Below are positions 45,011 to 59,956 of a stretch of DNA of 64,000 bases, piece after piece. The notes below the pieces were generated by a model. It was given only the letters and a program-made list of their open reading frames with translations. It was not told the DNA's origin and searched no databases. Numbering within the stretch: position 1 is the stretch's first letter; every line of letters starts with the position of its first letter. The stretch comes from Candidatus Thiodiazotropha sp. (ex Codakia rugifera) (GTDB lineage: Bacteria; Pseudomonadota; Gammaproteobacteria; Chromatiales; Chromatiaceae). The stretch spans positions 785,302 to 849,301 of the forward strand of contig JAHXHN010000002.1 of assembly GCA_025656675.1 (NCBI GenBank). Direction: 5' to 3'. Both the position numbers and the translations under genes were made by a program.

Positions 45011-45606
45011 AGAGCGTTCATTCCTTCTCGTAGGTTGTCCCTCTCCTTCGGTGTGTTGATATTGACAAAGGTACGAGGGAGATCTGAGAAATCGGCATAG
45101 GCAACCCGGTGTTTTTTATACCAGAGATCGATCTTTCTATCGCCATCATCCAGGTAACGCTGAAGGCTGGCGCTCAGATGTTTGGGGATCAGAGCGTAGA
45201 CCGGCTGAATGCGCACACCATCGTGGGCCACTGCGATATCCGCAGCCTCATTGTCGCGTGCCCTGACCAGGCGTTCCACCAGATCCTCCGGTAGCAACGG
45301 TCCATCACAGGGGAGGGTAATCATGTCGGTGGTTGAGAGTGTTTGCATGGCGGTAAGAAAACCGGCCAATGGGCCCTGATAGTCCGCCAGTGAGTCGGCA
45401 ATGACCGGATAACCGAGCTGTTGATATCGTTCCCTATTACGATTGGCATTGATCAGAATTTGGGCTACCTGAGGCTCGATGGCAGCAATAATATGGGCAA
45501 TCAGTGGCTTGCCATTCAATTCAATCAACCCCTTGTCTTCTCCGCCCATGCGACTGCCCCGTCCTCCAGCGAGAATCACAGCGGTTATACCGGGGTGAGT
45601 GATCAT
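45007..45606 (-). CDS. mobA: molybdenum cofactor guanylyltransferase
   Basis: The 199-residue protein has the nucleotidyltransferase opening AVILAGGRGSRMGGEDKGLIEL at residues 9-30 and TLPCDGPLLPEDLVERL near 98, both characteristic of MobA. It joins GMP to molybdopterin to make MGD/bis-MGD for DMSO-reductase-family enzymes. The ATG overlaps tupC by four bases and the stop overlaps mobB by four, consistent with one transcript. Confidence 0.94.
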   Translation of the reverse strand: MITHPGITAVILAGGRGSRMGGEDKGLIELNGKPLIAHIIAAIEPQVAQILINANRNRERYQQLGYPVIADSLADYQGPLAGFLTAMQTLSTTDMITLPCDGPLLPEDLVERLVRARDNEAADIAVAHDGVRIQPVYALIPKHLSASLQRYLDDGDRKIDLWYKKHRVAYADFSDLPRTFVNINTPKERDNLREGMNAL

Positions 45607-46322: not shown

Positions 46323-47020
46323 GTGACAGGCTGCCCCTTACCCTGGATGTGCTGCAACAGGGCGTTGAGAGTGAATGCAAGCGTCAACAAAACCAGGCCC
46401 AGGGCAATGCCCTGCGCAAATTCACCCTTGCTCGACTCCAGGGCGATTGCGGTGGGGATGTTACGGGTATAGTGCAGGATGTTTCCACCGAGCATCATTG
46501 AAGCACCGACCTCGGCAATAATGCGGCCGAAGGCGGCCAGGAATGCAGCCATCAGTCCGAATCTCGCCTCGCGCATGATAGTGAACACGGCCCGGATCAA
46601 ATTGGCACCCAGGGTACGGGCCGTTTCCCAGGCACGCCTGTCTGCTGCCTGCAATGCAGAATGACCCATGGCCACCAAAATGGGAAAGGCCAATGCTATC
46701 TGCCCCAATACCATGGCTGTCTGGGTGAACAGCAGTCTCCATTCACCCAGCGGCCCCTGTCGTGAGAGCAGTATGAAAAAGGTCAGACCGATTACGACAG
46801 CCGGTATGGATAAGAAGGTACTGTTAATTGAAATCAGCAGTCGGCGGCCCGGAAAGCGCTTGTATGTGAGAAGAAATGCCACCAGCAGTGCCGGTGGTGT
46901 TGCGATCAGGATGGCGACACCAGAAACACGAAACGAGATAGCGATAATCTCCCACAGTTCAGCATTGCCGCTGAACAGTAGATTTAAGGCCGCCAGGGTG
47001 GTGTCGCCGAGTATCCCCAT
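46319..47020 (-). CDS. tupB: tungstate ABC transporter permease
   Basis: The 233-residue permease has about five membrane helices and the coupling loop ARTLGANLIRAVFTIMREARFG near residue 135. The N-terminus, LLFSGNAELWEIIAISFRVSG, is characteristic of TupB rather than ModB. It transports tungstate with TupA and TupC. It overlaps the stop of tupA by one base and the start of tupC by four. Confidence 0.9.
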   Translation of the reverse strand: MGILGDTTLAALNLLFSGNAELWEIIAISFRVSGVAILIATPPALLVAFLLTYKRFPGRRLLISINSTFLSIPAVVIGLTFFILLSRQGPLGEWRLLFTQTAMVLGQIALAFPILVAMGHSALQAADRRAWETARTLGANLIRAVFTIMREARFGLMAAFLAAFGRIIAEVGASMMLGGNILHYTRNIPTAIALESSKGEFAQGIALGLVLLTLAFTLNALLQHIQGKGQPVT

Positions 47021-47880
47021 TATGGTGTGGTGCTGAATGCGGCAAACGCACCGGCGTCGGCTGCCGGAGTGAAGAGCTGGTTGTCACCAATGCGAAAATC
47101 ATCGATCCGTTGCTGGCCATCAGAGGATATCATCCATTTGATCAATGCCTTTGCGCCCAGGTTATTGATGTCGGGATAACGTTTCGGGCTGACGGCGATA
47201 ATACCGTAAGGGTTGAAAAGCAGTGGATCACCTTCGAAGCCTATTTTCAGTGGCGATTTATTTTTGAAGGCCAACCATGTTCCTCTGTCGGTCAGGGTAT
47301 ATGCATCCAGTTCCGAGGCGATCTGTAGGACTTTACCCATGCCTTGACCCGCTTCTCGATACCAGCGTCCTTCGGGTTTGATGCCCGCCTCTTTCCACAG
47401 TCCAAGCTCTTTTTTATGGGTGCCGGAATCATCCCCACGGGAGACAAAGATGACCTGATGTTCAGCGAGTTTTTTCAATACGGTGATAGCATCCTGTGCG
47501 CCGGCAATACCTGCGGGATCGCTAGCGGGACCGACCAGGACAAAGTCGTTGTACATGACCCCGTAGCGTTTTTCACCATACCCTTCAGCAACAAATTTAT
47601 CTTCAGCAGCACGGGCGTGTACCAGTACGACATCGACATCGCCATCTCTACCCATACGCAGCGCTTTACCCGTACCGACAGCAATAACATGAACAGGGTA
47701 ACCTGTCGATGCAGTGAATGCCGGTAGCAAGTCGGCAAGCAGGCCCGAATTATCGGTGCTTGTGGTTGTAGCCAATCGAATGGTCTGATTATTGCTATTG
47801 TCAGCGTTAACTAAACCAGAAAAAAGCAGACAGGCAATAACGATAAAGCGGACAGATTGAAGATAATGCGGTTTTCTCAT
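47020..47880 (-). CDS. tupA: tungstate-binding periplasmic protein
   Basis: The 286-residue protein has a signal peptide (residues 1-26, ending LVNA-DNS) and the TupA oxyanion-binding loop ATTTSTDNSGLLADLLPAF. It also has the GTGKALRMGRDGDVDVVLVHARAAED segment (near residues 68-93), typical of TupA rather than ModA. It binds tungstate in the periplasm. It is the first gene of tupABC-mobA-mobB-moeA and is divergent from the sigma-54 regulator. A strong -24/-12 promoter candidate lies 42 bases upstream. Confidence 0.92.
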   Translation of the reverse strand: MRKPHYLQSVRFIVIACLLFSGLVNADNSNNQTIRLATTTSTDNSGLLADLLPAFTASTGYPVHVIAVGTGKALRMGRDGDVDVVLVHARAAEDKFVAEGYGEKRYGVMYNDFVLVGPASDPAGIAGAQDAITVLKKLAEHQVIFVSRGDDSGTHKKELGLWKEAGIKPEGRWYREAGQGMGKVLQIASELDAYTLTDRGTWLAFKNKSPLKIGFEGDPLLFNPYGIIAVSPKRYPDINNLGAKALIKWMISSDGQQRIDDFRIGDNQLFTPAADAGAFAAFSTTP

Positions 47881-47921: not shown

Positions 47922-47937
47922 TGCAAAAGCGATGCCA
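47922..47937 (-). promoter_or_regulatory. sigma-54 (-24/-12) promoter of the tup-mob-moe operon
   Basis: On the minus strand TGGCATCGCTTTTGCA has the invariant GG and GC with ten bases between them, and differs from TGGCACG-N4-TTGCA at two positions only. Predicted transcription start is near 47911, and tupA begins at 47880. The gap of 408 bp to the regulator also holds upstream half-sites and an 8-bp inverted repeat (separate entries). Confidence 0.75.
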
Positions 47938-48029
47938 TATTGTGAACTATTTTGCTACCGATAGGGATTGGAGTAGTAAGTGGATTTCTTTTGTCTACTA
48001 TGTGAGTGTTGATTGGAACAGACTGATGA

Positions 48030-48051
48030 TTTTGGCGTTCGATCGCCAAAA
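48030..48051. repeat. 8-bp inverted repeat between tupA and the regulator gene
   Basis: TTTTGGCG and CGCCAAAA form a perfect stem with a 6-base loop. It lies between the tup -24/-12 promoter and the candidate activator sites, where a bending or repressor site could act. It has A/T on both ends so a weak bidirectional terminator is also possible. Confidence 0.45.
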
Positions 48052-48064
48052 GTTGTACCGATTA

Positions 48065-48092
48065 TGGGACATGGATATGCAGGAGTGGGACA
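48065..48092. promoter_or_regulatory. candidate enhancer (UAS) half-sites of the sigma-54 regulator
   Basis: TGGGACA occurs at 48065-48071 and again at 48086-48092 (the second inside AGTGGGACA), 21 bp apart start to start, so on the same face of the helix. Both match half-sites of the palindrome at 57134-57167 in front of the formate dehydrogenase genes. They lie about 128-155 bp upstream of the tup -24 element, a usual activator distance. A weaker TGACCCA follows near 48130. Confidence 0.5.
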
Positions 48093-48288
48093 AATGGTCG
48101 CAAAACAAAGGGTAATAAATTAGTCATTTTGACCCACAATTGAGACAGGTTAATCGGCAAAGCCATTTTTTTAATCTGTACCTTAAAAAACAGCATGAAG
48201 ACTGGAACAGCAACCCATGAACGTAAATGTAGAAGCGCTACAGACAGGCCGTGATTCCAAACAGATAAGTGGCAAGGAGGGTACGCCA

Positions 48289-49629
48289 GTGCGTATGGCA
48301 TCCGTCCTTATTGTGGATGATGAACCGGGTATACGCAGTTTTCTGCAGAAAGGTCTGCGTAAGTACTTTGGGCTGGTTGAGACCGCAGAGAATGTTGAGA
48401 CTGCCGAAGAACTGAGACTGCACTGCCACTTTGACCTGATTATCACAGACATCCGTCTTCCCGGACAAACCGGAGGGGTCGAGTGGGTAAGAGATTTGCG
48501 TGAGCAAGGAGGTACCACCGGCGTCATCTTCATGACTGCCCATGCTGATTTGGAGACAGCGATTGCAGCACTACGAGCAGGAGCTGAGGACTTCATCATG
48601 AAGCCTTTCCGGATGGAGCAGATGATTACTGCAGTAGAGCGTTACCTCGAGCGGCAGAAGATGCAGCGGGAAAATTTCGTGTTACGTCGACAGGTCGAGC
48701 AAATCTATGACAGTGCCGGCATGGTGGGGAATTGCCAGCAGATGCGTACCTTGTGCGATGTCATCAAACGGGTTGCTCCAATGCCTTCTACAGTCCTCAT
48801 TGAAGGGGAGTCCGGTACGGGTAAGGAACTGGCGGCCCGAGCGATCCACGAAATGAGTGGGCGCTCAGGCAGCTTTGTACCTGTTAATTGCGGTGCCATG
48901 AGTGCGGAACTGCTCGAAAGTGAACTGTTTGGCCATGTCAAAGGTGCTTTCACCGGTGCCCACCTTTCACGGGATGGACTGTTTACTTACGCAAGCAGTG
49001 GCACCCTGTTTCTTGATGAAATCGGTGAGATGCCACTCAGTATGCAGGCACATCTTCTGCGGGCCCTGGAGGAGCGTACCATTCGTCCTGTCGGATCGAA
49101 CCGTGAGGTACCCATCGATGTCCGCATCATAGCAGCCAGTAATCGTGATCTTGCACAAGAGGTGCGGAATGGGGATTTCCGTGAGGATCTCTACTATCGG
49201 TTGAACGTCCTATCGTTACGCATGCCTGCACTACGGGAACGTCATGAGGATATCCCGCTGCTAGCCAAACATTTCATCGATACGCTATCCGCAGAGTTGG
49301 GAATAGAATCGCTGCAGCTGGGTGAGGGTGAATTGGCCAGACTGCTGGAATATGACTGGCCCGGCAATGTGCGGGAGCTGAAAAATGTCATTGAGCGCTG
49401 TCTGTTACTGAACAAGTCCCCGAGTCTTTGCCTGACCGGATCAGAAGCTATCAGTAGACAATCGGTACAATTTGATCCCACAAAATCCCTGTTGCTGGAG
49501 GCGGTTGAGAAGCAGCATATACTCAAGGTCCTGGATCTGGAAGGGGGAAACAAATCGGCTGCTGCCCGGGCGCTCGGCATATCCCGCAAGACACTGGAGC
49601 GTAAAACACAGGCTTGGGGGCTCGGTTGA
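48289..49629 (+). CDS. sigma-54-dependent two-component response regulator (NtrC type)
   Basis: The 446-residue protein begins at GTG 48289, seven bases after a near-perfect AAGGAGGG; an upstream in-frame ATG at 48217 has no comparable site. It has a receiver domain (phosphoacceptor D54, D10-D11 acidic pocket, K105), then the AAA+ domain with Walker A GESGTGKE (173-180), the sigma-54-contacting GAFTGA loop (219-224) and Walker B LFLDE (240-244). A C-terminal Fis-type helix-turn-helix carries AARALGISRKTLERK. It should activate -24/-12 promoters when phosphorylated by the histidine kinase encoded next. Location between tungstate uptake and FDH maturation genes suggests these are its targets. 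Confidence 0.93.
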   Translation: MRMASVLIVDDEPGIRSFLQKGLRKYFGLVETAENVETAEELRLHCHFDLIITDIRLPGQTGGVEWVRDLREQGGTTGVIFMTAHADLETAIAALRAGAEDFIMKPFRMEQMITAVERYLERQKMQRENFVLRRQVEQIYDSAGMVGNCQQMRTLCDVIKRVAPMPSTVLIEGESGTGKELAARAIHEMSGRSGSFVPVNCGAMSAELLESELFGHVKGAFTGAHLSRDGLFTYASSGTLFLDEIGEMPLSMQAHLLRALEERTIRPVGSNREVPIDVRIIAASNRDLAQEVRNGDFREDLYYRLNVLSLRMPALRERHEDIPLLAKHFIDTLSAELGIESLQLGEGELARLLEYDWPGNVRELKNVIERCLLLNKSPSLCLTGSEAISRQSVQFDPTKSLLLEAVEKQHILKVLDLEGGNKSAAARALGISRKTLERKTQAWGLG

Positions 49630-49639
49630 AATTAATACA

Positions 49640-51775
49640 TTGAATCCACTGTTCAGGGTAGTACAGGCGATTCGCAGTAGCTTGCGTTACAAGTTATTGG
49701 CTTTAGTCCTGTTTCCCATTCTGTTGATGATGCCTATTGCACTGGGTCTGGCCATCTATTGGGGATCGCAATTCAGTTATGATCAACTCTTTATCAAGGT
49801 CAATACCGATCTCTCAGTTGCAGAAGATAATTTTCATCGCATCCAGGAAGATTATCTGAATACCCTCGGACGGCTGGCAGAATCGCATACTTTCTACACT
49901 GCGCTCGAATCCAAGAGCGGTCGGATTATCAGTGAGCAGCTGGCGGAGCTGAGACAATCAGCCGGATTCAGCTATCTTCATCTGCTTGGAATAGACGGGA
50001 GGCATCTGTTTCAGTCCTATGATGAGCCGGATAAACGCGGCCATCCATCACCCTCATTGCTGGCTGCACTTCAGGGCTTTCCCCGGGTTGAGATAGAGAT
50101 ATTTTCTGCAGATGATCTGGATGAGCAATCACCGGGACTGGCCATGCAAGTGGCGCTTCCCTTGTTGGATACGCCCCGAGCCAGACCGACCAGACAGGAG
50201 GTGGAGGAGCGCGGCATGATGATCCGTGCCCTCTATCCGGTGAAAAACTCCCGAGGGCAGGTGATTGCCGTACTGGATGGCGGGGTGCTGCTGAATGGCA
50301 ATTTTCAGTTTGTCGATGCGATCCGCGATCTGGTGTACGGACCGGGTAGTCTGCCAAAGGGGAGCATCGGTACCGTCACGGTATTTATTAATGATGTCAG
50401 GATTACCACGAATGTACCGCGGACACCTCATCAGAGGGCTTTGGGCACTCGCGTCTCCAATGAGGTGCGAACAAAGGTATTGGATCTTGGTGAGAAGTGG
50501 ATTGATCGCGCCTTTGTAGTAAACGATTGGTACATTTCAGCCTATCAGCCGATTATCGATGTCAATGGCGATCGTGTCGGTATGCTGTATGCAGGTTTTC
50601 TGGAGTCACCATCCCGGAATGCCTTGTGGCAGGCATTTGGCGTTTTAATCCTGTTATTTATCGCATTGATGTTTTTTTCCTCTCTGCTGTCTGTGAAGGG
50701 TGCGAAGTCGATTTTTAAGCCACTTGAGATGATGATGGCCGTTGTGCGTGCGACGCGTGAAGGTTATACCAAGCGTATCGGAAAAATCGCCTCCATGGAT
50801 GAGATTGGCGTACTGGCAAATGAGTTTGATCTACTGTTGGATCTGCTGCAAGAAAGGAATCTCCAGGTACAACAGTGGGCCGGTCAGCTGGAAGAGAAGG
50901 TCGATGAGCGAACAGCAGAGCTGAAATACAAAAATGAGAAGTTGCTTACCACCATACAGATACTGCGTGAAACTCGTGCTCAGTTGATTACCGCAGAAAA
51001 ACTTGCTGCATTGGGTGAATTGACTGCCGGTGTCGCCCATGAAATCAATAATCCGGCAGCCGTTATGTTGGGCAATCTCGATCTGTTGGTAGAGGAGTTG
51101 GGTGAGGATGCCGCTCCTGTGAAAGATGAGATTGATCTGATCATCGAACAGATCTTCCGCATTAAAGATATTATTAACAACCTATTGCAATATGCCAGGC
51201 CTGATCAAATAACGGAGATACCCACTCTGATCGATGTCAACGAAGTTGCGCAACACACTTTGGCATTGGTGCGCTATCTTCGAAAAGAGAGCCAGTTTGA
51301 GATTCTGTTGGATCTGAATGCAACACGACCTATTCAAATCAATCCCCATGAGCTGCAACAGGTACTGGTCAACCTGGTCGTCAATGCAGTACATGCCTTG
51401 CGCAATGGTGAAGGGAAGGTCTATCTGACGACTCGTGACTGGGATAAGAAGGGTGTAGTGATAGGTGTGGAAGATAATGGCTTGGGTATAGAAGAGGATC
51501 AGATAGAGTTGATATTCAATCCTTTTCACACCCATAAACGTGTAGGAGAGGGTACCGGGTTAGGCTTGTCTGTCAGTTACGGTCTGATTAAAAAATATGG
51601 AGGCGATATCACTGTCAGTTCAGAGTGGGGTAAGGGATCACTGTTTTCTGTCTGGTTATTGGAGGAACCGGACATTATTGAAGAAGAGACCGCCTTGATA
51701 GAACAGTTTTACTCTGCTGAACAAGAGGTGGAGGAGGATGATGTAAACACAGCCCGGAAAATGAAGAGTGCTTGA
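49640..51775 (+). CDS. membrane sensor histidine kinase with extracytoplasmic cache-like domain
   Basis: The protein of about 711 residues is read from TTG 49640, since no ATG lies near the conserved start. It has a first membrane helix (about residues 18-41), a large periplasmic region of about 290 residues with cache-like features (FSYLHLLGIDGRHLFQSYD, DWYISAYQPIIDVNGDRVGM), a second helix at about 330-352, HAMP, a coiled region, and the kinase core. Phosphoacceptor is H467 in GVAHEINNPAA, with N box QQVLVNLVVNAVHAL, G1 VEDNGLGIEEDQ and G2 GEGTGLGLS. It starts 10 bp after the NtrC-type regulator and is its probable partner. Cache domains bind small ligands, often carboxylates; formate is a tempting but unproven signal. 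Confidence 0.88.
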   Translation: MNPLFRVVQAIRSSLRYKLLALVLFPILLMMPIALGLAIYWGSQFSYDQLFIKVNTDLSVAEDNFHRIQEDYLNTLGRLAESHTFYTALESKSGRIISEQLAELRQSAGFSYLHLLGIDGRHLFQSYDEPDKRGHPSPSLLAALQGFPRVEIEIFSADDLDEQSPGLAMQVALPLLDTPRARPTRQEVEERGMMIRALYPVKNSRGQVIAVLDGGVLLNGNFQFVDAIRDLVYGPGSLPKGSIGTVTVFINDVRITTNVPRTPHQRALGTRVSNEVRTKVLDLGEKWIDRAFVVNDWYISAYQPIIDVNGDRVGMLYAGFLESPSRNALWQAFGVLILLFIALMFFSSLLSVKGAKSIFKPLEMMMAVVRATREGYTKRIGKIASMDEIGVLANEFDLLLDLLQERNLQVQQWAGQLEEKVDERTAELKYKNEKLLTTIQILRETRAQLITAEKLAALGELTAGVAHEINNPAAVMLGNLDLLVEELGEDAAPVKDEIDLIIEQIFRIKDIINNLLQYARPDQITEIPTLIDVNEVAQHTLALVRYLRKESQFEILLDLNATRPIQINPHELQQVLVNLVVNAVHALRNGEGKVYLTTRDWDKKGVVIGVEDNGLGIEEDQIELIFNPFHTHKRVGEGTGLGLSVSYGLIKKYGGDITVSSEWGKGSLFSVWLLEEPDIIEEETALIEQFYSAEQEVEEDDVNTARKMKSA

Positions 51776-51878
51776 TTCTTAAAATAACTCAAAGTATGAA
51801 GAGAATCGTAATGAATACATAGTGCAAACAGTTAACATCGATCCTTATTACTCATCATTTCTTTACAAAAACATTAGA

Positions 51879-52418
51879 ATGGAAAAACCAGCACTGAAAC
51901 AACTCATAAGAACCCTTGCTTTTGCTGCGCGAAAGCATCGTGATCAACGACGTAAGGATATAGAAGCGTCTCCATATATCAATCATCCAATTACCCTGGC
52001 TGATATTCTGGTCAATGAGGGTGGTGTGACAGATATGGAAACCCTGATAACGGCACTGCTTCATGACACAATCGAAGATACGGATACGACTGTGGAAGAG
52101 ATTGAATCTGAATTTGGTCTTGTCATAGCAAGCTTGGTTATGGAAGTGACTGACGATGACTCTTTATCGAAGCTGGAACGAAAGGAGCTGCAGATTCAGC
52201 ACGCTCCTTATCTTTCCCAAAAAGCACGATTGGTCAAACTGGCCGACAAGATCGCCAATCTGCGTGATGTCTATCAGAGTCCGCCAACAGATTGGTCACT
52301 GCAGAGAAAGCAGGCCTATTTTGATTGGGCTAAAGCGGTGATCGATGGGTTAAGAGGTACCCACGATGACCTGGAAGCCATCTTCGATGCCGCCTATAAA
52401 AATAGACCCAACAGCTGA
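51879..52418 (+). CDS. HD-domain hydrolase, MESH1/SpoT-like
   Basis: The 179-residue protein is the stand-alone HD domain of the RelA/SpoT hydrolase family. Metal-binding residues are H20 (KHRDQRRK), H36 in YINHP, H62-D63 and E66-D67 in LLHDTIEDT. KLADKIANLRD near 122 supplies the late aspartate motif. It would cleave a 3'-pyrophosphate of (p)ppGpp or related nucleotide. No synthetase domain is present. The start could also be GTG 51822, which would add an unconserved 19-residue tail. It follows the kinase by 103 bp and may be co-transcribed. Confidence 0.82.
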   Translation: MEKPALKQLIRTLAFAARKHRDQRRKDIEASPYINHPITLADILVNEGGVTDMETLITALLHDTIEDTDTTVEEIESEFGLVIASLVMEVTDDDSLSKLERKELQIQHAPYLSQKARLVKLADKIANLRDVYQSPPTDWSLQRKQAYFDWAKAVIDGLRGTHDDLEAIFDAAYKNRPNS

Positions 52419-52685
52419 TCGCTGCGGGTCAGAGCGAAATGTCCGAATACTAACACCGATATCTGAGATTATCTGATTGTAGGGTATCGTTCTGCTGCAC
52501 TTAAATGCATCTGGCTGAATGGAAGAGACAGTCGTAATCCCTGTCTGGCACCCTATTCAGATGTAGGCCTGTTGCCAAAAGCTTCGGTGTGGAGATATGA
52601 CACCCTACTTGGTTGTGGAATTCCATTGTTGAAATTGCAGCTATCTTTTATTCCGCCCACCAATAAATCCTGAGGAGTAGAAAAA

Positions 52686-53207
52686 ATGAGTGAAGAGCGA
52701 CAATTTGTACCCTTGAATATCAGCGTAATGACCGTCTCAGATACAAGAACAGAAGATAATGATAAATCAGGCCTCAAGCTAAGAGCCCTGCTTGAGGAAG
52801 CAGGCCACAAAATGGCGGAAAAGGTGATTGTCCCGGATGATTGTTACCAGATACGAGCGGATGTCTCGAAGTGGATTGCTGATTCCAATGTACAGGTTGT
52901 GATCACGACCGGAGGTACTGGTCTGACAGGGAGAGATGGAACACCGGAAGCTGTACATCCACTGCTGGATAAAGTGATCGATGGGTTTGGCGAGATGTTC
53001 CGGGTACTCTCTTATGAAACCATTGGTACATCAACCTTGCAGTCAAGGGCATTGGCCGGTGTTGCCAATGGCACCTTTATCTTCTGTCTGCCAGGGTCGA
53101 CTGGCGCCTGCATGGATGGTTGGAGCAAGCTGATTGCAGCACAACTTGATTACAGAACCCGCCCCTGTAATTTAGTGGAGTTGATGCCAAGATTACTGGA
53201 AAAATAA
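52686..53207 (+). CDS. moaB: molybdenum cofactor biosynthesis protein B
   Basis: The 173-residue protein has the MoaB/MogA fold signatures: SVMTVSDTRTEDNDKSGLKL near the N-terminus, VITTGGTGLTGRDGTPEAV near residue 76 and CLPGSTGACMDGW near 133. MoaB-type proteins adenylate molybdopterin or assist that step before metal insertion by MoeA. A TGAGGAG site precedes the ATG. It is the third Mo/W-cofactor locus in this island after moeA and moaA. A -24-like TGGCAC at 52544-52549 has no matching -12, so its promoter is not identified. Confidence 0.92.
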   Translation: MSEERQFVPLNISVMTVSDTRTEDNDKSGLKLRALLEEAGHKMAEKVIVPDDCYQIRADVSKWIADSNVQVVITTGGTGLTGRDGTPEAVHPLLDKVIDGFGEMFRVLSYETIGTSTLQSRALAGVANGTFIFCLPGSTGACMDGWSKLIAAQLDYRTRPCNLVELMPRLLEK

Positions 53208-53215
53208 AATAGTAG

Positions 53216-53230
53216 GGCAGGGACCCTGCC
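53216..53230. terminator. GC-rich hairpin after moaB
   Basis: GGCAGGG and CCCTGCC pair around one base just after the moaB stop, with a closing tail GCAC. The pattern GTAGGGCAGGG...CCCTGCCGCAC resembles the tandem hairpins at 57009-57060. No T-run. It may be a dispersed REP-like element rather than a simple terminator. Confidence 0.45.
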
Positions 53231-53389
53231 GCACCAAATTCGAGATTGATCAAACGCTGGAGGAGTCGATTTCCATATGGGTATCTCGATGGGAACGATG
53301 CTGTAAGCAATGGATTCGGTGCAGCAGGTCACACACCCTGCATAATGGGAGCAAGAGGTGCGAGTTTTTGCTTGGGAATAAGGTGATAA

Positions 53390-53821
53390 TTAAATCTGTC
53401 CAATCGTACTCATGAAAAAAAACAACACAATAAAAAAGCCGCCGACCAATAGCCAGATGGTGTTCCGTCTTTTATGACGCAATTTTAGTTTTGCTGTCTG
53501 AGCGTCGATGGCTTCCTTCTCTCTGTCACTGAGTGATGGGTCAATCCAGACCCGTTTATGGCTTAGATCATCAGCCTCAACTGCTGCAATCATCTGCTTT
53601 AGATCGGCGCGATAGATATGATTGTCTAGATCGATAAGGGCGTTGTGCAATACGTTGTGGAGATGCATTTGACCCGCTTCGATATCGTTGAATCGCACAA
53701 TGTAGCGAACTGCCGAGCCGGGACTGGCCGCTTGTGTACTGGGTAGTTCATCCTTAATCAGAACCCGGACCAGGCCCTGATGTTCAGGGTGTGTTTCGAG
53801 TGTGAGATAACCTGTCTTCAT
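53390..53821 (-). CDS. hypothetical protein with C-terminal membrane anchor
   Basis: The 143-residue product has a soluble N-terminal region (GYLTLETHPEHQGLVRVLIK) with several histidines and acidic residues, a basic stretch KLKLRHKRRNT near residue 112, and one hydrophobic helix (residues about 120-140) at the C-terminus. It is probably a tail-anchored cytoplasmic protein. No family recognised. It lies between moaB (convergent) and an inverted-repeat element, and its promoter may fall within that element. Confidence 0.6.
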   Translation of the reverse strand: MKTGYLTLETHPEHQGLVRVLIKDELPSTQAASPGSAVRYIVRFNDIEAGQMHLHNVLHNALIDLDNHIYRADLKQMIAAVEADDLSHKRVWIDPSLSDREKEAIDAQTAKLKLRHKRRNTIWLLVGGFFIVLFFFMSTIGQI

Positions 53822-53832
53822 AGGTCTTTAAT

Positions 53833-54005
53833 ATTAACCCGGTACCTTAGGGTCTGTCTTGAAAATTTAAGTATGTTAGGGGCTTCAAGAATGCCCTTGC
53901 TCAATGTTGTGGATCTTGCCAGGGCATCTAATCGGCTGAGAGCCGTGTCTTGATAAAGGGTATTCCTGAAGCCCTGAACTGGGCCTATTTAGGTACCGGG
54001 TTAAT
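53833..54005. mobile_element. 173-bp MITE-like element with nested inverted repeats
   Basis: Perfect 15-bp terminal inverted repeats ATTAACCCGGTACCT (53833-53847) and AGGTACCGGGTTAAT (53991-54005) enclose 143 bp. A second, imperfect pair lies inside: CTTCAAGAATGCCC (53883-53896) and GGGTATTCCTGAAG (53958-53971), 12 of 14 matching, extending to about 19 of 23. The whole element could fold into one long hairpin. It has no reading frame of note. A miniature transposable element is the best explanation; a structured leader RNA for the 143-residue gene is the alternative. Confidence 0.55.
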
Positions 54006-54049
54006 CTTACATGAACCTATGGATTCGGTTATAGGTGAATGGCCGTTTA

Positions 54050-54964
54050 TCACTCATCTCCCCAGATCAGTTCTCCAGCTTCCCGCAAGTCATAGCCAGT
54101 CAGTTTATCTGCCATGGTTTTGCAATCTGAAGAGCGCAGTCTGGTAATAAGGTCCTGGAACAGCCGGCGAAACCAGATACTGCGCGGTAACGTCAGATCG
54201 AAAGACTCCCAACCGAATGGAATGAAGGCCAGACCGTACTCATTGGCAGCAGCCCGTGCACCTGGTGCTACATCAGCCTGGTTCATGGCGATACAGGCAG
54301 CGGCTTCTCGCTCAGACAAGGCTGTGCTGACACTGTTCAGACGTTCTTCACTGGTTTCATAGCGGCTCAGCACTTCGAGTAAAAAACGTTGTGCGCCAGC
54401 ACCACTCTGTCGCATGGCCCAGCGGTAGGGGTGTTCGAAGAGTTGCTCAGGTTCAAGCTGTTGCTGTTCGATTTGCCGGCTGACCATTAATCCCTGTTCT
54501 CGTCGAAACAGGCGTATCAGCACCCACTGCCGGTATTGAGGATACTGGCGTAGCAGCGCAGGGTGACGCATATGGCTTTCCTGATTCGGTCCCCAATGGA
54601 TGCCACAGGCATCGATCCGATTGGCCTGCAACAGCTCCAGTCCAAGCCGGGTACCGGTTGGGGAGTAATTGATTAAAGCGTGAGAGCCTGTCTCCTGGGC
54701 AAAGGTCATAATCAATCGATAGAGCAGAGGATCATCGCTGCCGGCAATCACCAGCCGATTAGTCATCAGGCCACCATGTGCGGAGTCGAGCATCCAGCGA
54801 TCGACCAACTCTCTTGGGAACAGCCACTTACCGGTGATCTTGGTTGCAGGGATACGCTCTTCGCTGACCAGCGAATAGATCTTCTTCTCATTCAGGTGAA
54901 GATACTCCGCTACCTGCTTGACGTTCATGAACACATGTTGCTCCTGTGACATCACCGCTACCAT
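54050..54964 (-). CDS. excisionase-type HTH regulator with periplasmic-binding-protein-like sensor domain
   Basis: The 304-residue protein has an AAGGAGG site six bases before its ATG. Residues about 12-58 are a MerR/excisionase-like helix-turn-helix: MNVKQVAEYLHLNEKKIYSL and the WLFPRELVDRWM wing. Residues about 70-285 resemble the PBP-like domain (PF12727 type) that occurs with MoeA and senses molybdate or other oxyanions in the cytoplasm; DPLLYRLIMTFAQETGSHAL is its first strand-helix. It is third in the operon moaA-fdhD-HTH. A role in metal-responsive control of the FDH or cofactor genes is plausible but inferred. Confidence 0.75.
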   Translation of the reverse strand: MVAVMSQEQHVFMNVKQVAEYLHLNEKKIYSLVSEERIPATKITGKWLFPRELVDRWMLDSAHGGLMTNRLVIAGSDDPLLYRLIMTFAQETGSHALINYSPTGTRLGLELLQANRIDACGIHWGPNQESHMRHPALLRQYPQYRQWVLIRLFRREQGLMVSRQIEQQQLEPEQLFEHPYRWAMRQSGAGAQRFLLEVLSRYETSEERLNSVSTALSEREAAACIAMNQADVAPGARAAANEYGLAFIPFGWESFDLTLPRSIWFRRLFQDLITRLRSSDCKTMADKLTGYDLREAGELIWGDE

Positions 54965-54976
54965 ACGTCTCCTCCT

Positions 54977-55888
54977 TTATCGAATTTTCGCATGTTCGAC
55001 TCTCCCTTCCCTTACACTTTTCAAACGACCGTCGGGTATGGCATCGAAGGTGATATTCTCCGCACCGTTGTAAACCAGGAAGTGTTTACCTTTAGCGCGG
55101 GCAATCAGGGTAACCCCGACCTGTCTGGCTAAATCCAGTCCCATCTGTGTGGCACCCGAGCGCGAAAGGAGGATAGGTATGCCCATCTGTGCTACTTTGA
55201 TCACCATCTCGGAAGTGAGTCTGCCAGTGGTGTAGAAAAGCTTGTCGTTGCCAGCGGTACCCTGCAGCCACATGTGTCCGGCTATGGCATCGACTGCGTT
55301 GTGTCGTCCCACATCCTCAATGAACAGTTGAATTTCCCCATCCTGACATAGGGCGCAGCCATGTACTGCACCTGCCTGTTGATAGACTTGGTTGTGCTCA
55401 TTGAGTGTTTTCAACAGATCGTATATCTCGGATTGCCGCATCATGCCACGGGGCAGACTGATCTTTTCAAGATCATCCATCAAATCACCAAAAACAGTCC
55501 CTTGACCACAGCCGGTAGTGACGGTTTTTCGCGTCATCTTTCCATCCAAATCCTCTACGCCATGATAGGTGGTGATGGCAACGGACGCTGTCTCCCAATC
55601 GACCTGGACCGCTTTAATCTGATCAATGCTATGTAGCAGTCGTTGGTTGCGTAACCAACCCAGCACCAGCATCTCCGGACGAGTGCCAAGTGTCATCAAA
55701 GTCACTATCTCGCGTTTGTCGAGATAGAGGGTAAGCGCACGCTCAGCAGCAATATGTCCTGCACGTATTTCACCAAATTCATCAACTGCCGATGCGGCCT
55801 CTGCTGCATTCAGTCCAGCATCGGTAAGCTGTGGTTGGTGTGGCTTACGAAGCATATCCATGGTGTCTCTTTTATCCACCGGTGACAT
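54977..55888 (-). CDS. fdhD: formate dehydrogenase sulfur transferase FdhD
   Basis: The 303-residue protein matches FdhD: EFGEIRAGHIAAERALTLYL near residue 37, GTRPEMLVLGWLRNQRLL near 68, and the C-terminal EDVGRHNAVDAIAGH block near 200. FdhD carries sulfur to the molybdopterin site of formate dehydrogenase. The sulfur-carrying loop reads TTGCGQGTVF with a single cysteine, C127, rather than the CxxC pair known in E. coli FdhD. It overlaps moaA by 17 bases and is 12 bp from the HTH/PBP gene. An internal ATG at 55861 has a slightly better ribosome site. Confidence 0.93.
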   Translation of the reverse strand: MSPVDKRDTMDMLRKPHQPQLTDAGLNAAEAASAVDEFGEIRAGHIAAERALTLYLDKREIVTLMTLGTRPEMLVLGWLRNQRLLHSIDQIKAVQVDWETASVAITTYHGVEDLDGKMTRKTVTTGCGQGTVFGDLMDDLEKISLPRGMMRQSEIYDLLKTLNEHNQVYQQAGAVHGCALCQDGEIQLFIEDVGRHNAVDAIAGHMWLQGTAGNDKLFYTTGRLTSEMVIKVAQMGIPILLSRSGATQMGLDLARQVGVTLIARAKGKHFLVYNGAENITFDAIPDGRLKSVREGRVEHAKIR

Positions 55889-56891
55889 TCATATGACGAA
55901 ACAACACAGGCTGAGCAGTGATATCGAAGTCATGCCCCTTGGGTTTGATCTGCATGGCATCGATGATAGCTTTTCGTAGGGGTTCCTCGTTCAGTGGGTT
56001 GGCGCGTACCACCCGACGTAGATCTTTTGAGTGTTCTTGACCGAGACACAGCAGCAACCTGCCCTCAGCGGTTAGACGCACCCGATTGCACTGCTCGCAG
56101 AAGTTGTGGCTATGGGGTGAGATAAAACCGACCCGGGTATCGCTGCCATTGATACGGTGGTAGCGCGCTGGACCACCACTCGTTTCGGTAGTGGGTATCA
56201 GGTCATAGTGGCGTTGCAGATCTTGAAGAACCTGGTCGCTGGAGTAGAAGAGTTCGGCGCGGTTATGATCACCGATCTCTCCGAGTGGCATCTCCTCAAT
56301 GAAGCTGATGTCCATACCGCGATGTTCAGCAAAGGCGACCAGGTCAGGTATTTCATCATGATTTCGGTTTTTCAGAATCACTGAATTGATCTTGACTCGC
56401 TGAAAGCCCGCATCAAGGGCGGCATCGATGCCGGCCAGGGTACGGCAAATGTCACCGATCCGGGTAATACTGTGAAAACGCTCTGCGCGTAGGGTGTCGA
56501 GGCTGATATTGATGCGGGTGACGCCTGCAGCCTTGAGTGCTCGCGCATGTTGTTTCAGCAGGGTGCCATTGGTCGTCAATGTCAGATCCTGTAGGCCATC
56601 CAGGGTACCGAGGGACTGAAAAAGCTGCATGATGCCACGCCTTGTCAATGGCTCACCGCCAGTGATGCGGATTTTGTTTACCCCCATGTCAACAAAGGCT
56701 TTACCCACTCGATAGAGCTCTTCCAATGTCAATAACTGTGAACGGGGTACAAACTGCATATCTTCGGACATACAGTAGACACAGCGCAGATCACAACGAT
56801 CGGTGACGGAGATGCGGAGGTAGTCGATGCGGCGGTTAAATCGGTCTACCAGGCTCGATTGAGTCTGTTGCTCGCGGGTCTCTGCTTTCAC
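55872..56891 (-). CDS. moaA: GTP 3',8-cyclase of molybdenum cofactor biosynthesis
   Basis: From GTG 56891 the protein is 339 residues. A GGAG site nine bases upstream supports this start over TTG 56930, which would lie inside the promoter. The radical SAM cluster motif is CDLRCVYC, followed by the GGEPLTRRG-type block (KIRITGGEPLTRRGIMQL). The second cluster ligands lie in HNFCEQCNRVRLTAEGRLLLCLG. MoaA makes the pyranopterin backbone of Mo/W cofactor from GTP. It heads moaA-fdhD-HTH, preceded by a candidate -24/-12 promoter. Confidence 0.94.
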   Translation of the reverse strand: MKAETREQQTQSSLVDRFNRRIDYLRISVTDRCDLRCVYCMSEDMQFVPRSQLLTLEELYRVGKAFVDMGVNKIRITGGEPLTRRGIMQLFQSLGTLDGLQDLTLTTNGTLLKQHARALKAAGVTRINISLDTLRAERFHSITRIGDICRTLAGIDAALDAGFQRVKINSVILKNRNHDEIPDLVAFAEHRGMDISFIEEMPLGEIGDHNRAELFYSSDQVLQDLQRHYDLIPTTETSGGPARYHRINGSDTRVGFISPHSHNFCEQCNRVRLTAEGRLLLCLGQEHSKDLRRVVRANPLNEEPLRKAIIDAMQIKPKGHDFDITAQPVLFRHMNVTGG

Positions 56892-56925
56892 AGTTATTGA
56901 CTCCAAGGGGATCTTTGGAACAATC

Positions 56926-56941
56926 TGCAATTACCATACCT
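56926..56941 (-). promoter_or_regulatory. candidate sigma-54 promoter of moaA-fdhD
   Basis: On the minus strand AGGTATGGTAATTGCA has GG and GC with ten bases between them and a perfect TTGCA -12 box; the -24 box matches four of six key positions. The predicted start near 56915 leaves a 24-base leader containing the GGAG site of moaA. It is one of two divergent -24/-12 candidates sharing the 410-bp gap 56892-57301. Confidence 0.6.
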
Positions 56942-57008
56942 AATTAACCTGGTAATTAAGCGAATTTACCTCATCATGGCTATTCATCGACATCCCTCGT
57001 CTTTAATA

Positions 57009-57060
57009 GTGGGGCAGAACCCCACCCTGAGCCATTGGGTAGAGTGGGGCCATGCCCCAC
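57009..57060. repeat. REP-like pair of GC-rich hairpins
   Basis: GTGGGG-CAGAA-CCCCAC (57009-57025) and GTGGGGC-CAT-GCCCCAC (57044-57060) are two adjacent perfect stem-loops of related sequence. The moaB-distal hairpin at 53216-53230 shares the GGGCA...CCCTGCC style. These look like a dispersed extragenic palindromic repeat placed between divergent operons. Confidence 0.6.
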
Positions 57061-57133
57061 CAATCCCACCTGAACAGGATTGTGTCACTATTCTCACCCC
57101 ATAACTCCGGTGGCGGCAGACTAAGTGGTACGA

Positions 57134-57167
57134 AATGTCCCACTTTTGGCATAGTGGGCGGGACATT
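57134..57167. promoter_or_regulatory. candidate enhancer palindrome for the sigma-54 regulator
   Basis: AATGTCCCACT on the left and the AGTGGG and GGGACATT parts on the right form a nested inverted repeat: outer arms AATGTCCC / GGGACATT are perfect, inner arms CCCACT / AGTGGG are perfect. It lies about 85-117 bp upstream of the rightward -24 element and about 195-230 bp from the leftward one, typical for an enhancer-binding protein. The TGTCCCA half-site recurs at 48065-48092. Confidence 0.6.
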
Positions 57168-57250
57168 TTGCCCTGTTTTACCCTGACTCCCTTTTCCAGA
57201 TTATTTTCCCGTAGCGACTCTTTTGCGATTTTCCTGCCACTTTTGCCGGT

Positions 57251-57265
57251 TGGTATGCAACTTGC
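57251..57265 (+). promoter_or_regulatory. candidate sigma-54 promoter of the DUF3305-polyferredoxin operon
   Basis: TGGTATGCAACTTGC has GG and GC with ten bases between them. Key positions of TGGCACG-N4-TTGC are matched apart from two C-to-T changes. Predicted transcription start is near 57277, 25 bp before the first gene at 57302. Confidence 0.6.
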
Positions 57266-57301
57266 GATAGAGGTATTGGATATCAGATCGGGGCGTAAAT
57301 T

Positions 57302-57829
57302 ATGGCGGCGACAACAATCAGTGAGCTTGAAGCTGAAAACCCGAGCACATTCAGTGTTTCCGTGATCATGCAAAAATCCCCCAGTGATTCGACCTGGTTG
57401 GATGACTACTGGGAAGCAGTAGGTATATTGGCTTCGACCGATGTCAGTCGGCGCATCAACCAGGAGGTGCAACTGATCCATCAGGAGGGAACTGTTTACC
57501 GCTATCTCTATCCCGGCTTCACCCTGCGGTTACATGTGGATGAGTGTGAAAGCTACTACTACAATCTGGTGTCGTCACAACCACGCTGTTATGTCGTGGC
57601 AAATCAGGATGACCAAGGCAGGCCTGAACCCTTTCTTATCAGTCTCAGTTTTGATGAGGCTCACGCTTATCTCGAAGGTGATGAGACCGTCTACGCCGTG
57701 CCGGTCCCCGCTGAACTCTACCGTTGGACCGAGACCTTCATTTTAGCCCACTACGTCCCGCAAAAGCGCACCAAGCGTAGACGTGCCGACTGGAAATCGA
57801 CAGCAGCACGGGGTGATCATGAAATCTGA
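57302..57829 (+). CDS. DUF3305 protein of the formate dehydrogenase cluster
   Basis: The 175-residue product matches DUF3305 in length and composition: a FSVSVIMQKSPSDSTWLDDYW opening, a YRYLYPGFTLRLHVDECESYYYNL central strand region and a basic PQKRTKRRRADWKS tail. The family is found almost only beside formate dehydrogenase genes with DUF3306 and a 4Fe-4S protein; function is unknown but probably FDH maturation or assembly. Its last codons overlap the DUF3306 start by 11 bp. No ribosome site is strong. Confidence 0.85.
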   Translation: MAATTISELEAENPSTFSVSVIMQKSPSDSTWLDDYWEAVGILASTDVSRRINQEVQLIHQEGTVYRYLYPGFTLRLHVDECESYYYNLVSSQPRCYVVANQDDQGRPEPFLISLSFDEAHAYLEGDETVYAVPVPAELYRWTETFILAHYVPQKRTKRRRADWKSTAARGDHEI

Positions 57830-58346
57830 TGATCCATCTAATCAGCAGCTACCAAATCAAGCCACCTTCTACCATCGCTGGTCTGAGCGGAAACAGGCCT
57901 CGCGTCTGCCGGTTGAGGAGCTGGCGGAGCCTACTGAAAAGCCACACCTGACTGATGCAGATATGCCGCCGCTTGAGAGCCTGGGTGAGGGATCGGACTA
58001 CAGCGGTTTTCTTTCCCCCAAGGTGTCAGAACAGCTGCGTCAGCTGGCATTGCAAAAACTCTTTCACAGCGCCGCCTTTAATGTTTGTGACGGATTGGAT
58101 GACTATGCAGAAGACTTCACCAGCTTTGAAAAGCTGGGAGAGGTGATGACAGCTGATCTGAGACACCGTATCGAGCAAGAGGCCCGTAAACGGCGAGAGG
58201 GTGAGGATGAAGCCGCCAATCCTCAACCTGCAGACACCGAGTCAGATCAAATCCATGACATACAGTTGGCAGACAACAGGGTGCAACCCGAGACAGATGA
58301 GCTGAATGATGGGGAGACCGGACATCCCAATGAGGTTAAGTCATGA
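57819..58346 (+). CDS. DUF3306 protein of the formate dehydrogenase cluster
   Basis: The 175-residue protein starts at ATG 57819 just after GGGG. It has the DUF3306 core FYHRWSERKQASRL near residue 17, a LTDADMPPLESLGEGSDYSGFLSPKVSEQLRQLALQKLF block (in two parts) near residues 46-85, and an acidic, repetitive C-terminal tail. Unknown cytoplasmic function. It links DUF3305 to the polyferredoxin through four-base overlap, so all three are translated together. Confidence 0.85.
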   Translation: MKSDDPSNQQLPNQATFYHRWSERKQASRLPVEELAEPTEKPHLTDADMPPLESLGEGSDYSGFLSPKVSEQLRQLALQKLFHSAAFNVCDGLDDYAEDFTSFEKLGEVMTADLRHRIEQEARKRREGEDEAANPQPADTESDQIHDIQLADNRVQPETDELNDGETGHPNEVKS

Positions 58347-59956
58347 CTGAAAAGATTGAGACCAACCGTCGGGCCCGGGAACAAGCGCTGGCGGCGATGG
58401 AGCGGGTCAGGATTGAACCGACCAGTCTGGTTAACTATCAATCCCGTGGCAGGATAGCAGTGATTGGTGACCAACGGGCTCATGAGATAGCTCCAAGGCT
58501 GAATGAGAAGCTGAACCCAATCGTCCTCCTGACCGAGGGGGCGGAAGAGCCCGGTGCTCCGGTCATACCTGTGGGTGGACGCTCGGTCCATATCGAAGGT
58601 TACCTGGGTGCCTTCAGGATTCAACTGGGTGAGCAGGGAAGATCCAACGCAGAAAGTGTTGCCGTGGACCTGATTCTAGACCTTACCCCGCAGCCATTGA
58701 TACATAAAGGTATGAACCCCCCCGGTTACTACCATTCAACCGGTGAGGAGGATGCCCTGTTACCTGTAATCGAAGAAGTTGCTCAGATGACCGGTAATTT
58801 CGAGAAGCCCCGGTATTTCGACTATGACCCTGAGATCTGCGCCCACGGCAGATCAGGGAAAACCGCTTGTAACCGCTGTATCGACGCCTGTCCCGCTGAT
58901 GCGATTCAAGGTTTGGCCGAGACCGTTGAAGTGAATAATTATCTCTGTCAAGGAGGCGGTGCTTGTGCAACTGTTTGTCCCAGTGGCGCGATTCGATATG
59001 TTTATCCTGCCGCTAAAGATACCCTGGAGCGCCTGCGCAAGCTGCTGACCGTCTACCGGGAAGAGGGAGGCAGCGATCCGGTTGTGCTGTTTTATGCCGC
59101 CTCTGACGGCTCTCTTCCGGATACTATTCAGACAAATTACCTGCCAGTGATGGTTGAAGAGCTGGCCAGTGTCGGCCTGGATGTTTGGATGGCTGCCCTT
59201 GCCTATGGTGCTCGACAGATAGGCCTGGTGGATGGTGGTGCCATGCCGGAAACAGTGGCTATTGCTATGCAGGAGCAGTTACTGACAGGGTGTGAGATAG
59301 TCTCTGCGTTAGGTTATCCCGAAGGTGCGATCAGGCTGACTGATCATGAGGAATTGTTTGAGGAAGTGCAGTCAGTCATGCCGGAGATAGAACCTGCGGG
59401 TTTTTCCGGTATCGGCGGCAAACGACAAACGGTCTACCTCGCTATTGATCATTTGTATGCTCAGGCTCAACGTCCCAAACCTATGGCAACCCTAACCACG
59501 GGAGCCCCATTCGGTACCGTCTACGTCGAGGCGAAGGCTTGTACACTGTGTCTCTCTTGCGTCGGTGCCTGTCCTGGCAAGGCGCTGCTGAATGGTAGCG
59601 ATGGTATCCCACAGCTGCGCTTCATTGAGGCCAATTGTCTGCAATGCGGCATCTGTACCAGAACCTGTCCTGAGGATGCGATTTGGATTACACCGAGGCT
59701 GTTATTCGACAGTGATGATCGTCATCAAACGCGTACTTTGCATGAAGAACAGCCATTCTTCTGTACAGCCTGCGGTAAGCCGTTTGCCACCCATTCAGTG
59801 ATCGACAAAATGCGCAATAAACTCAAGGGACACTATATGTTCCAGAGTGAGCGTGCACTGAAGCGTCTGACCCTTTGTGATAGTTGCCGGGTTGTGGATA
59901 TTGTGCAGGATCCAGAGGCCATCGGTGGTGACCTGGACGGGCAGATTCGCCAGTAA
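58343..59956 (+). CDS. multi-cluster 4Fe-4S ferredoxin-like protein of the formate dehydrogenase cluster
   Basis: The 537-residue protein has two pairs of 4Fe-4S motifs: CAHGRSGKTACNRCIDACP and CQGGGACATVCP around residues 170-215, and CTLCLSCVGACP and CLQCGICTRTCP around 395-440. Two more cysteine pairs (CTACGKP and CDSCR) lie near the C-terminus and may bind zinc or another cluster. It resembles the FDH-linked electron-transfer or assembly protein found after DUF3306. Residues 1-150 lack cysteines. It may carry electrons from formate dehydrogenase in the cytoplasm. ATGA overlaps DUF3306. Confidence 0.88.
   Translation: MTEKIETNRRAREQALAAMERVRIEPTSLVNYQSRGRIAVIGDQRAHEIAPRLNEKLNPIVLLTEGAEEPGAPVIPVGGRSVHIEGYLGAFRIQLGEQGRSNAESVAVDLILDLTPQPLIHKGMNPPGYYHSTGEEDALLPVIEEVAQMTGNFEKPRYFDYDPEICAHGRSGKTACNRCIDACPADAIQGLAETVEVNNYLCQGGGACATVCPSGAIRYVYPAAKDTLERLRKLLTVYREEGGSDPVVLFYAASDGSLPDTIQTNYLPVMVEELASVGLDVWMAALAYGARQIGLVDGGAMPETVAIAMQEQLLTGCEIVSALGYPEGAIRLTDHEELFEEVQSVMPEIEPAGFSGIGGKRQTVYLAIDHLYAQAQRPKPMATLTTGAPFGTVYVEAKACTLCLSCVGACPGKALLNGSDGIPQLRFIEANCLQCGICTRTCPEDAIWITPRLLFDSDDRHQTRTLHEEQPFFCTACGKPFATHSVIDKMRNKLKGHYMFQSERALKRLTLCDSCRVVDIVQDPEAIGGDLDGQIRQ

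Follow-up and report, generated by a model that had tools for sequence, protein, structure and literature searches.

Genes of the tup and fdh region

The DNA analysed here (the window) is a stretch of 64,000 nucleotides from the 4.65-Mb genome of Candidatus Thiodiazotropha sp. (ex Codakia rugifera), in which rpoN is present. It carries a predicted NtrC-type response regulator and its sensor histidine kinase among genes for metal uptake, pyranopterin synthesis and formate dehydrogenase (FDH) assembly. A preliminary description had read this region as one sigma-54 regulon of the linked NtrC-type pair, comprising uptake, pyranopterin synthesis and FDH maturation. The computational analysis presented here supports this reading, with activation by the pair as a predicted step.

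On the minus strand, Pfam backed the calls of the tup-like ATP-binding cassette genes and of mobA (45007-45606), mobB (44429-45010) and moeA (43198-44469). The uptake genes encode a tupA-like substrate-binding protein (47020-47880), a tupB-like permease (46319-47020; Pfam and NCBIfam) and a tupC-like ATPase (45603-46322) named from its position, as the TupC model is weak. TupA was the sole NCBIfam family listed for the substrate-binding protein (241 bits at a cut-off of 400), and TupB and TupC reached 190.6 of 320 and 101.8 of 400 bits, respectively. By family resemblance the transporter is thus Tup-like, and we infer that tungstate rather than molybdate is the metal transported. Of the tungstate uptake originally proposed, the assignment to TupA as best family stands, with a score under the curated cut-off and a specificity that is one of family resemblance.

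The regulator gene (48217-49629, plus strand) encodes a receiver, an AAA+ domain with GAFTGA and a Fis-type helix-turn-helix (HTH), as supported by alignments and by PF00072, PF00158 and PF02954, all above cut-off. The protein keeps GAFTGA and the phospho-Asp pocket D34, D35, D78, T107 and K129, and it scored 383 bits against the model of NtrC sensu stricto (TIGR01818, NR(I) equivalog), below the cut-off of 558.6. The kinase gene (49625-51775, plus strand), whose GTG start overlaps the stop of the regulator gene, encodes a periplasmic double Cache module (sCache_3_3), HisKA and HATPase, likewise backed by Pfam. Pfam, alignment and structure model therefore confirmed both the full GAFTGA loop and the large periplasmic kinase domain of the preliminary description. 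Among the best loci listed, the closest named relatives of the kinase belong to a Candidatus Thiodiazotropha (87 % identity) and to a symbiont of Ctena orbiculata (84 %); the hosts are lucinid clams.

Further Pfam-backed genes are moaA (55872-56891; GTG start inferred), fdhD (54977-55888) and a one-component regulator with an excisionase-like HTH and a PBP_like domain (HTH/PBP; 54050-54964), all on the minus strand, followed on the plus strand by DUF3305 (57302-57829), DUF3306 (57783-58346), a polyferredoxin gene (58343-59956) and torD for a TorD-family chaperone (60229-60897). The plus strand continues with the gene of a 70-aa Tat-signal protein of the FDH cluster (61071-61283) and with fdhA of the Cys type (61302-64000), which extends beyond the window end. 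The next gene, outside the window, matches the FDH3 beta subunit model NF038355 with 341 bits (cut-off 240). Located 3' of the FDH genes are genes for TmcC/HmcE-like and DsrK/TmcB-like proteins (L009:6137-8062, window 66136-68061) and for a multihaem cytochrome, a dihaem-shuttle-like cytochrome and a sulfide:quinone-reductase-like protein (L009:9594-13600), every equivalog model for these proteins being under cut-off.

Sigma-54 promoters and paired operators

GG-N10-GC sites were present at the places previously given for three operons, tupABC-mobA-mobB-moeA (47922-47937, minus strand, TGGCATCGCTTTTGCA), moaA-fdhD-HTH/PBP (56926-56941, minus strand, AGGTATGGTAATTGCA) and DUF3305-DUF3306-polyferredoxin (57251-57266, plus strand, TGGTATGCAACTTGCG), and they are conserved in relatives. 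A fourth, sigma-54-like site precedes torD (60188-60203, plus strand, TGGTCCATTGCTTGCA). From the coordinates, transcription starts are expected approximately 15-32 nt 5' of the start codons of tupA (47880), moaA (GTG, 56891), DUF3305 (57302) and torD (60229). We compared the best match of each intergenic region with Markov shuffles, using a weight matrix of our own based on the sigma-54 consensus, and on this basis obtained p values of 0.005, 0.015 and 0.010 for the three promoters and of 0.030 for torD. With the same procedure, significant matches were obtained in 15 of the 17 regions that face tup, mob or moaB genes (not in L049 and L060), in 9 of the 10 that face moaA (not in L052) and in all 10 that face DUF3305; these regions come from relatives and are not independent samples. 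We therefore take the predicted promoters before tupA, moaA and DUF3305 to be real and conserved. The torD site, together with the block immediately upstream, is kept in four genomes of the genus; no operator of the family described below was found for torD among the best sites of the window. Sigma-54 autoregulation of the regulator was considered and rejected: the plus-strand match was significant only in L048 (p 0.005), borderline in L047, L051, L052 and L053 (0.055-0.070) and at p 0.134 in L050. The L048 site in the A region, TGGCATGGTATTTGCC, is a possible promoter toward the regulator, with weaker matches in L050-L053, so that such a promoter may exist in some genera.

The operator is a 17-bp palindrome, TGGGACAAATTGTCCCA, that occurs in tandem pairs 32-34 bp apart at 48086-48136 (enhancer A) and 57126-57175 (enhancer B). 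Enhancer A consists of dyads A1 (48086-48102, TGGGACAAATGGTCGCA) and, 34 bp from it, A2 (48120-48136, TTAGTCATTTTGACCCA); enhancer B consists of B1 (57126-57142, TGGTACGAAATGTCCCA) and, 33 bp from it, B2 (57159-57175, CGGGACATTTTGCCCTG). The pairs are located 170-204 bp from the promoter of tupABC-mobA-mobB-moeA, 206-239 bp from that of moaA-fdhD-HTH/PBP and 97-130 bp from that of DUF3305-DUF3306-polyferredoxin. This revises the sites first proposed. The letters of the TGTCCCA half-sites are present, and they are halves of the 17-bp palindromes, except that 48065-48071 belongs to neither dyad; the nested palindrome at 57134-57167 turned out to be the facing halves of two adjacent dyads. Searched genome-wide with three mismatches, that nested palindrome was exact only at itself and had two further places with three mismatches each, compared to nine for the reversed control, and it was abandoned for the dyad model. 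TGGGACA-N3-TGTCCCA, searched likewise, occurred at 88 places compared to 135 for the reversed pattern (both strands listed). A single dyad consensus is hence uninformative genome-wide; the paired model is informative.

The palindrome was obtained by expectation maximization (EM) in separate runs on 12 tup-side regions, leaving out the near copies L045, L046 and L053, the distant L060, and L049, in which moaB and not tup adjoins the regulator, and on 9 FDH-side regions, leaving out L053. Both runs gave the identical consensus TGGGACAAaTTGTCCCA, with log-likelihoods of 93 (tup-side) and 76 (FDH-side) compared to 20 to 28 on six shuffles each, and each motif predicted sites in the opposite set (Fisher p 6e-13 and 2e-15). 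In 19 of 22 regions, the best and second-best sites were separated by 32 to 34 bp. This count is uncorrected for kinship, includes two second-best sites scoring below 0 and leaves out L045, L046, L053 and, because its best score was under 11, the A region of L049.

A model of the paired sites (R1) was built from 19 of 20 pairs, the A pair of L051 being left out. Run against the entire genome (E≤10; 150 of the 503 first-look candidates were scored), it reported only 57126-57173 and 48086-48136. When the model was rebuilt without the window and without the genus member L044, just these two pairs were again obtained, with E values of 2e-4 and 1.86. At the eight other sigma-54 activator loci of the genome, the best single-site score was 10.1. 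In 15 relatives, 11 of which had contributed sites to the model, 39 of the 43 listed matches, some of them one pair seen on the opposite strand, fell at the expected tup/mob, HTH/PBP, moaA and DUF3305 places, and the remaining four had E values of 0.62-0.81.

Further sites were observed within the window. A lone operator-like site (score 13.4) occurs right at the beginning of the moaB coding region (52696-52712), and two GTGGGGC-N3-GCCCCAC hairpins (57009-57025 and 57044-57060) lie between the moaA promoter and the operator; the third match to this pattern in the window has three mismatches, and the total is not above chance.

Relocated genes, missing regulators and lost kinases

Kinase relatives were taken from a family sample of 146 genomes, and up to 20 kb was fetched around 18 of them; gene order was mostly conserved, with rearrangements and contig ends. 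A kinase-profile scan of named genomes, of which the best 80 loci were used, extended the set to Thiodiazotropha, Sedimenticola, Thiothrix, Neptunomonas, Photobacterium, Thauera, Hydrogenophaga, Bradyrhizobium and Rhizobium. At least one match (E≤1e-6) to the cofactor, uptake or FDH genes of the window occurred in 67 of these 80 loci and none in 13, and 53 had such a match at ≥40 % identity; torD identities are uninformative in these comparisons, the query having been out of frame (60230 instead of 60229). In 63 held-out loci (1.26 Mb), 26 operators scored ≥18, compared to an average of 0.2 (maximum 1) for 40 permuted motifs. Ten held-out tupA/regulator regions had a significant operator in all ten and a sigma-54 site in nine. 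The scan of related genomes suggested by the preliminary description thus bore out the corrected palindrome, which recurs at orthologous promoters and is enriched in held-out loci.

A site of score ≥9 was located directly 3' of the kinase in 26 of 64 scanned loci and was followed by a sigma-54 match (p≤0.05) in 23 of these (not in L125, L128 and L140). In all 26, the next gene resembles one transporter of the major facilitator superfamily (MFS; 42-100 % identity). For the two proteins classified, the top model was an L-lactate carrier, just under cut-off, with oxalate/formate antiporters well under; only the short 'OXA tail' domain passed. Strong operators (22.5-26.0) were also observed inside the moeA coding region of Photobacterium and Moritella (L123:4725-4741, L134:4606-4622, L135:2631-2647 and L136:4639-4655), where no obvious promoter target was seen, and another (21.1) lies just 5' of an additional regulator-like gene that matches in part (31 % identity; L111:17150-17166).

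Operators appear mostly to follow relocated genes. In G082, tupA lies away from the regulator, accompanied by an operator (20.5) and a promoter (21.0), and the region upstream of the regulator gave neither an operator nor a sigma-54 match. HTH/PBP, separated from moaA in G061, G095, G117 and G135, carries an operator and a promoter of its own there; in G129, moaA and DUF3305 are approximately 5 kb apart, with a tandem operator and a promoter at each; and moeA of G108 has both elements.

DUF3305 is present in 29 of the 146 genomes, namely 17 of 18 that bear the kinase (Fisher p 1.3e-13), G136 and eleven further kinase-less ones. Nine of these eleven have the regulator (57-72 % identity); in the other two, G059 and G115 of one genus, it was absent at E≤1e-90. 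All nine have a sigma-54 site of ≥19.6 upstream of DUF3305, and their best operator scores there were 13.5 (G001), 19.5 (G003), 9.6 (G006), 1.8 (G011), 10.6 (G048), 21.9 (G060), 21.7 (G113), 15.5 (G116) and 19.7 (G134). In the regulator-less genomes G059 and G115, promoter scores were 16.9 and 16.3 and the operator reached at best 3.1. The promoter therefore tracks the regulator and not the kinase, as the nine genomes with the regulator keep strong sites and the two without do not. The operator likewise seems to track the regulator in most genomes. Kinase absence, first tried as the negative control for operators, did not serve as such, since operators are retained in kinase-less genomes; the regulator is the better variable.

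At seven of the nine kinase-less regulator loci the surroundings were read: no kinase match adjoined the regulator, and HTH/PBP was the next gene in six. For G116 and G134, kinase absence is based on the search of the 146-genome sample, and completeness is only 72-83 % in five of the nine genomes. The second acidic residue of the receiver, D35, is replaced by H, A, E or S in all nine regulators, and in two of them the phosphate-accepting Asp is missing as well; all nine retain an intact Walker A, GAFTGA and recognition helix. In contrast, D34, D35, D78, T107 and K129 are kept in all 42 aligned kinase-bearing regulators, and no receiver deviation was found among 79 regulators of a second alignment. 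The first of these alignments took 26 of the 80 named loci and left out L048 (split regulator frame), L054 and L061 (contig ends). In L048 (5287-6314; G097) the regulator gene is split into two frames, by a sequencing error or as a pseudogene. Decay of the receiver with loss of the kinase ties the two proteins together and suggests that selection continues to maintain regulator output in the absence of phosphorylation. G136, which belongs to the same genus as the window, is a tenth genome without the kinase; there the regulator and its receiver are intact, suggesting recent loss. Between its regulator and HD gene (L144, 1204-1533; G136:C107) there was no kinase match, no search for remnants having been made. 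A tree of the AAA+ and HTH parts, using 28 of the 42 kinase-bearing rows, required the kinase state to change five times, four of these changes being forced by starred branches. Since kinase-bearing rows surround the kinase-less ones, we read these changes as losses, so that the kinase was probably lost about four times or more among relatives.

GAFTGA is lost or badly altered in 9 of the 79 regulators (L089, L093, L099, L101, L137, L079, L111, L125 and L140), all of which keep the HTH; the first five are from Rhodobacteraceae or Paracoccaceae. Five of the nine loci have no operator at ≥13, and at the other four the sigma-54 matches close to the operators score no higher than 19.3; a switch away from sigma-54 is possible in these regulators.

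Formate as candidate signal and alternative readings

The sensor of the kinase matched Pfam sCache_3_3 with 101 bits (cut-off 28.8), and its predicted structure (predicted local distance difference test score, 96.5) reads as two Cache modules. In fold comparison, the distal module was nearest to CitA. The membrane-proximal module with the first helix resembles, in fold and in sequence, 8py0 and 8py1, both solved with formate. These are chemoreceptor domains, formate being reported as ligand of one sCache_3_3 chemoreceptor along with its binding residues (PMC12415202), while the window protein is a double-Cache histidine kinase whose ligand is predicted. A motif for formate receptors is said to exist (PMC12395807), and a formate chemoreceptor of a different Cache type is described (PMC8698456), as far as the passages concerned go. 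Formate is our best guess for the kinase signal, at about an even chance.

We consider it likely that this widespread NtrC-type two-component system, probably sensing formate, co-induces metal uptake, cofactor synthesis and FDH assembly through sigma-54. The periplasmic double Cache module would bind formate or a very similar short carboxylate, and the kinase would then phosphorylate the response regulator. The regulator would bind the tandem 17-bp palindromes, 32-34 bp apart and on one helix face, at the two shared enhancers; by DNA looping, its GAFTGA-bearing AAA+ motor would open sigma-54 polymerase at the three promoters. Metal uptake, synthesis of pyranopterin and of bis-molybdopterin guanine dinucleotide, and FDH3 assembly would thus rise together when substrate is present. 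The regulon is supported by a motif that was learned twice and cross-validated, by its specificity genome-wide, by enrichment in held-out loci across genera and classes, by promoters that mostly follow relocated genes and by a promoter architecture that is lost in genomes lacking the regulator.

Several results weigh against this interpretation. Left out of training, enhancer A reached a genome-wide E of just 1.86, and one dyad per pair is frequently weak. Among the held-out kinase loci, 27 of 63 have no operator at ≥14; mobA of G108 has an operator and no significant promoter; G011, with regulator and sigma-54 promoter, has no operator before DUF3305 (1.8) or beside the regulator and is a clear exception to the tracking described above, and the operators before DUF3305 in G006 (9.6) and G048 (10.6) are weak. 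All Tup models stayed below their curated cut-offs. The promoter letters in this window alone are barely above chance: the GG-N10-GC consensus with ≤1 mismatch matched 16 times compared to 10.1 ± 3.4 expected, a number reached by 8 of 100 shuffles, and TGTCCCA, with 10 occurrences compared to 11.7 expected, is not enriched. With window counts so near chance, the case for promoters and operator is carried by conservation. Chance promoter-like matches combined with a palindrome that serves an unrelated factor would account for such counts; in view of the conservation, the relocated genes, the held-out enrichment and the regulator-less controls, we regard this explanation as highly improbable.

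The input to the regulon is less certain. Other Cache sensors, CitA (citrate) first, equal or outscore the formate-bound domains in fold comparison, and the distal half resembles CitA, so that an acid other than formate may be the ligand. At the 26 loci with an operator downstream of the kinase, only 8 have a cofactor or FDH gene match at ≥40 % identity, so the FDH link is weaker there, and the gene that follows is the MFS transporter with its sub-cut-off lactate-carrier model. This gene recount and these transporter models weaken the formate link in alphaproteobacteria. The same regulon might thus respond to citrate-like or other carboxylates, or to redox or quinone state, with FDH as one respiratory route among several. 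Given that 67 of the 80 best kinase loci have a cofactor or FDH gene match (53 at ≥40 % identity) and that the membrane-proximal half of the sensor resembles formate-bound domains, we judge such an input possible and distinctly less probable than an even chance. Alternatively, tup and FDH genes might be controlled chiefly by HTH/PBP in response to tungstate or molybdate, with the sigma-54 features minor. The protein has the excisionase-like HTH and PBP_like domains, and the tupR (DVU3193) family of Rajeev 2019 reportedly has an excisionase-like DNA-binding domain. A passage citing that work names tupR as a regulator of tungstate uptake in D. vulgaris (PMC10102598). However, the occurrence of operator and sigma-54 promoter follows that of the response regulator, and 25 of the 26 loci with an operator downstream of the kinase are without an HTH/PBP match in the fetched stretch, which makes control by HTH/PBP unlikely.

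A broader reading builds on the sigma-54 regulon, and we offer it tentatively, as falling a little short of an even chance. A formate-sensing sigma-54 system may be spread across alpha-, beta- and gammaproteobacteria and repeatedly rewired, coupling substrate sensing to metal uptake, pterin cofactor and FDH assembly and, in alphaproteobacteria, also to a carboxylate transporter of the lactate/oxalate-formate-like type. The kinase would have disappeared from about four or more lineages, where the regulator became a phosphorylation-independent activator of unchanged promoters, while Rhodobacteraceae relatives lost the GAFTGA loop instead, suggesting escape from sigma-54.

Parts of this architecture recall known systems. 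The NtrC/glnAp2 enhancer likewise combines a receiver-AAA+-Fis regulator with a sigma-54 promoter and two dyads approximately 32 bp apart with arms 3 bp apart; the operator letters, the kinase with its periplasmic Cache sensor and the regulon of metal uptake, cofactor and FDH genes differ. FhlA of E. coli is also a sigma-54 activator of formate-metabolism genes with formate as signal, which in our case is predicted; however, it binds formate itself via N-terminal domains, without receiver or kinase, and targets formate hydrogenlyase, not tup, moa or mob. The window regulator has a receiver domain and so falls outside the FhlA type. Regulators of the TaoR/TupR type control tungstate transport and tungstoenzymes, and the HTH/PBP protein, with its excisionase-like HTH and PBP_like domains, may be of this type; they are one-component regulators, whereas the HTH/PBP gene sits inside a predicted two-component regulon. 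VC1522, beside tup genes, we take to be the Vibrio orthologue of the window regulator.

VC1522 appears in lists in the passages concerned (PMC4441509, PMC6855506). According to one survey, COG3383 members, of which 32% are called formate dehydrogenases, are predicted to be under sigma-54 control (PMC12316311); unlike the system described here, these come, in the passages concerned, with no named activator, operator, or cofactor and uptake operons. The structural gene cluster of the window is that of the fdhGHI operons with DmsD/TorD-type chaperones, DUF3305 and DUF3306, whose gene-content passages name no such regulator (PMC4464133). As excerpted, other work gives a slightly lower formate fitness for an rpoN mutant, of unknown cause (PMC11540253), and a value of -1.3 for an FDH gamma gene in a sigma-54 transcriptome table (PMC5979394). 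The novelty claimed in the preliminary description held in that our literature search, mostly at the level of titles and abstracts, yielded no description of the regulator-kinase pair or the operator; work on the V. cholerae RpoN regulon may hold prior evidence.

If the proposed regulon is correct, the FDHs of many proteobacteria, including chemosynthetic clam symbionts, would gain a switch together with a defined operator and a signal that can be tested, and the matching of a scarce metal, a costly cofactor and an enzyme that needs both would be explained. The lineages without the kinase would be natural experiments on an enhancer-binding protein surviving without phosphorylation, and the operator could be used at once for regulon annotation in existing genomes.

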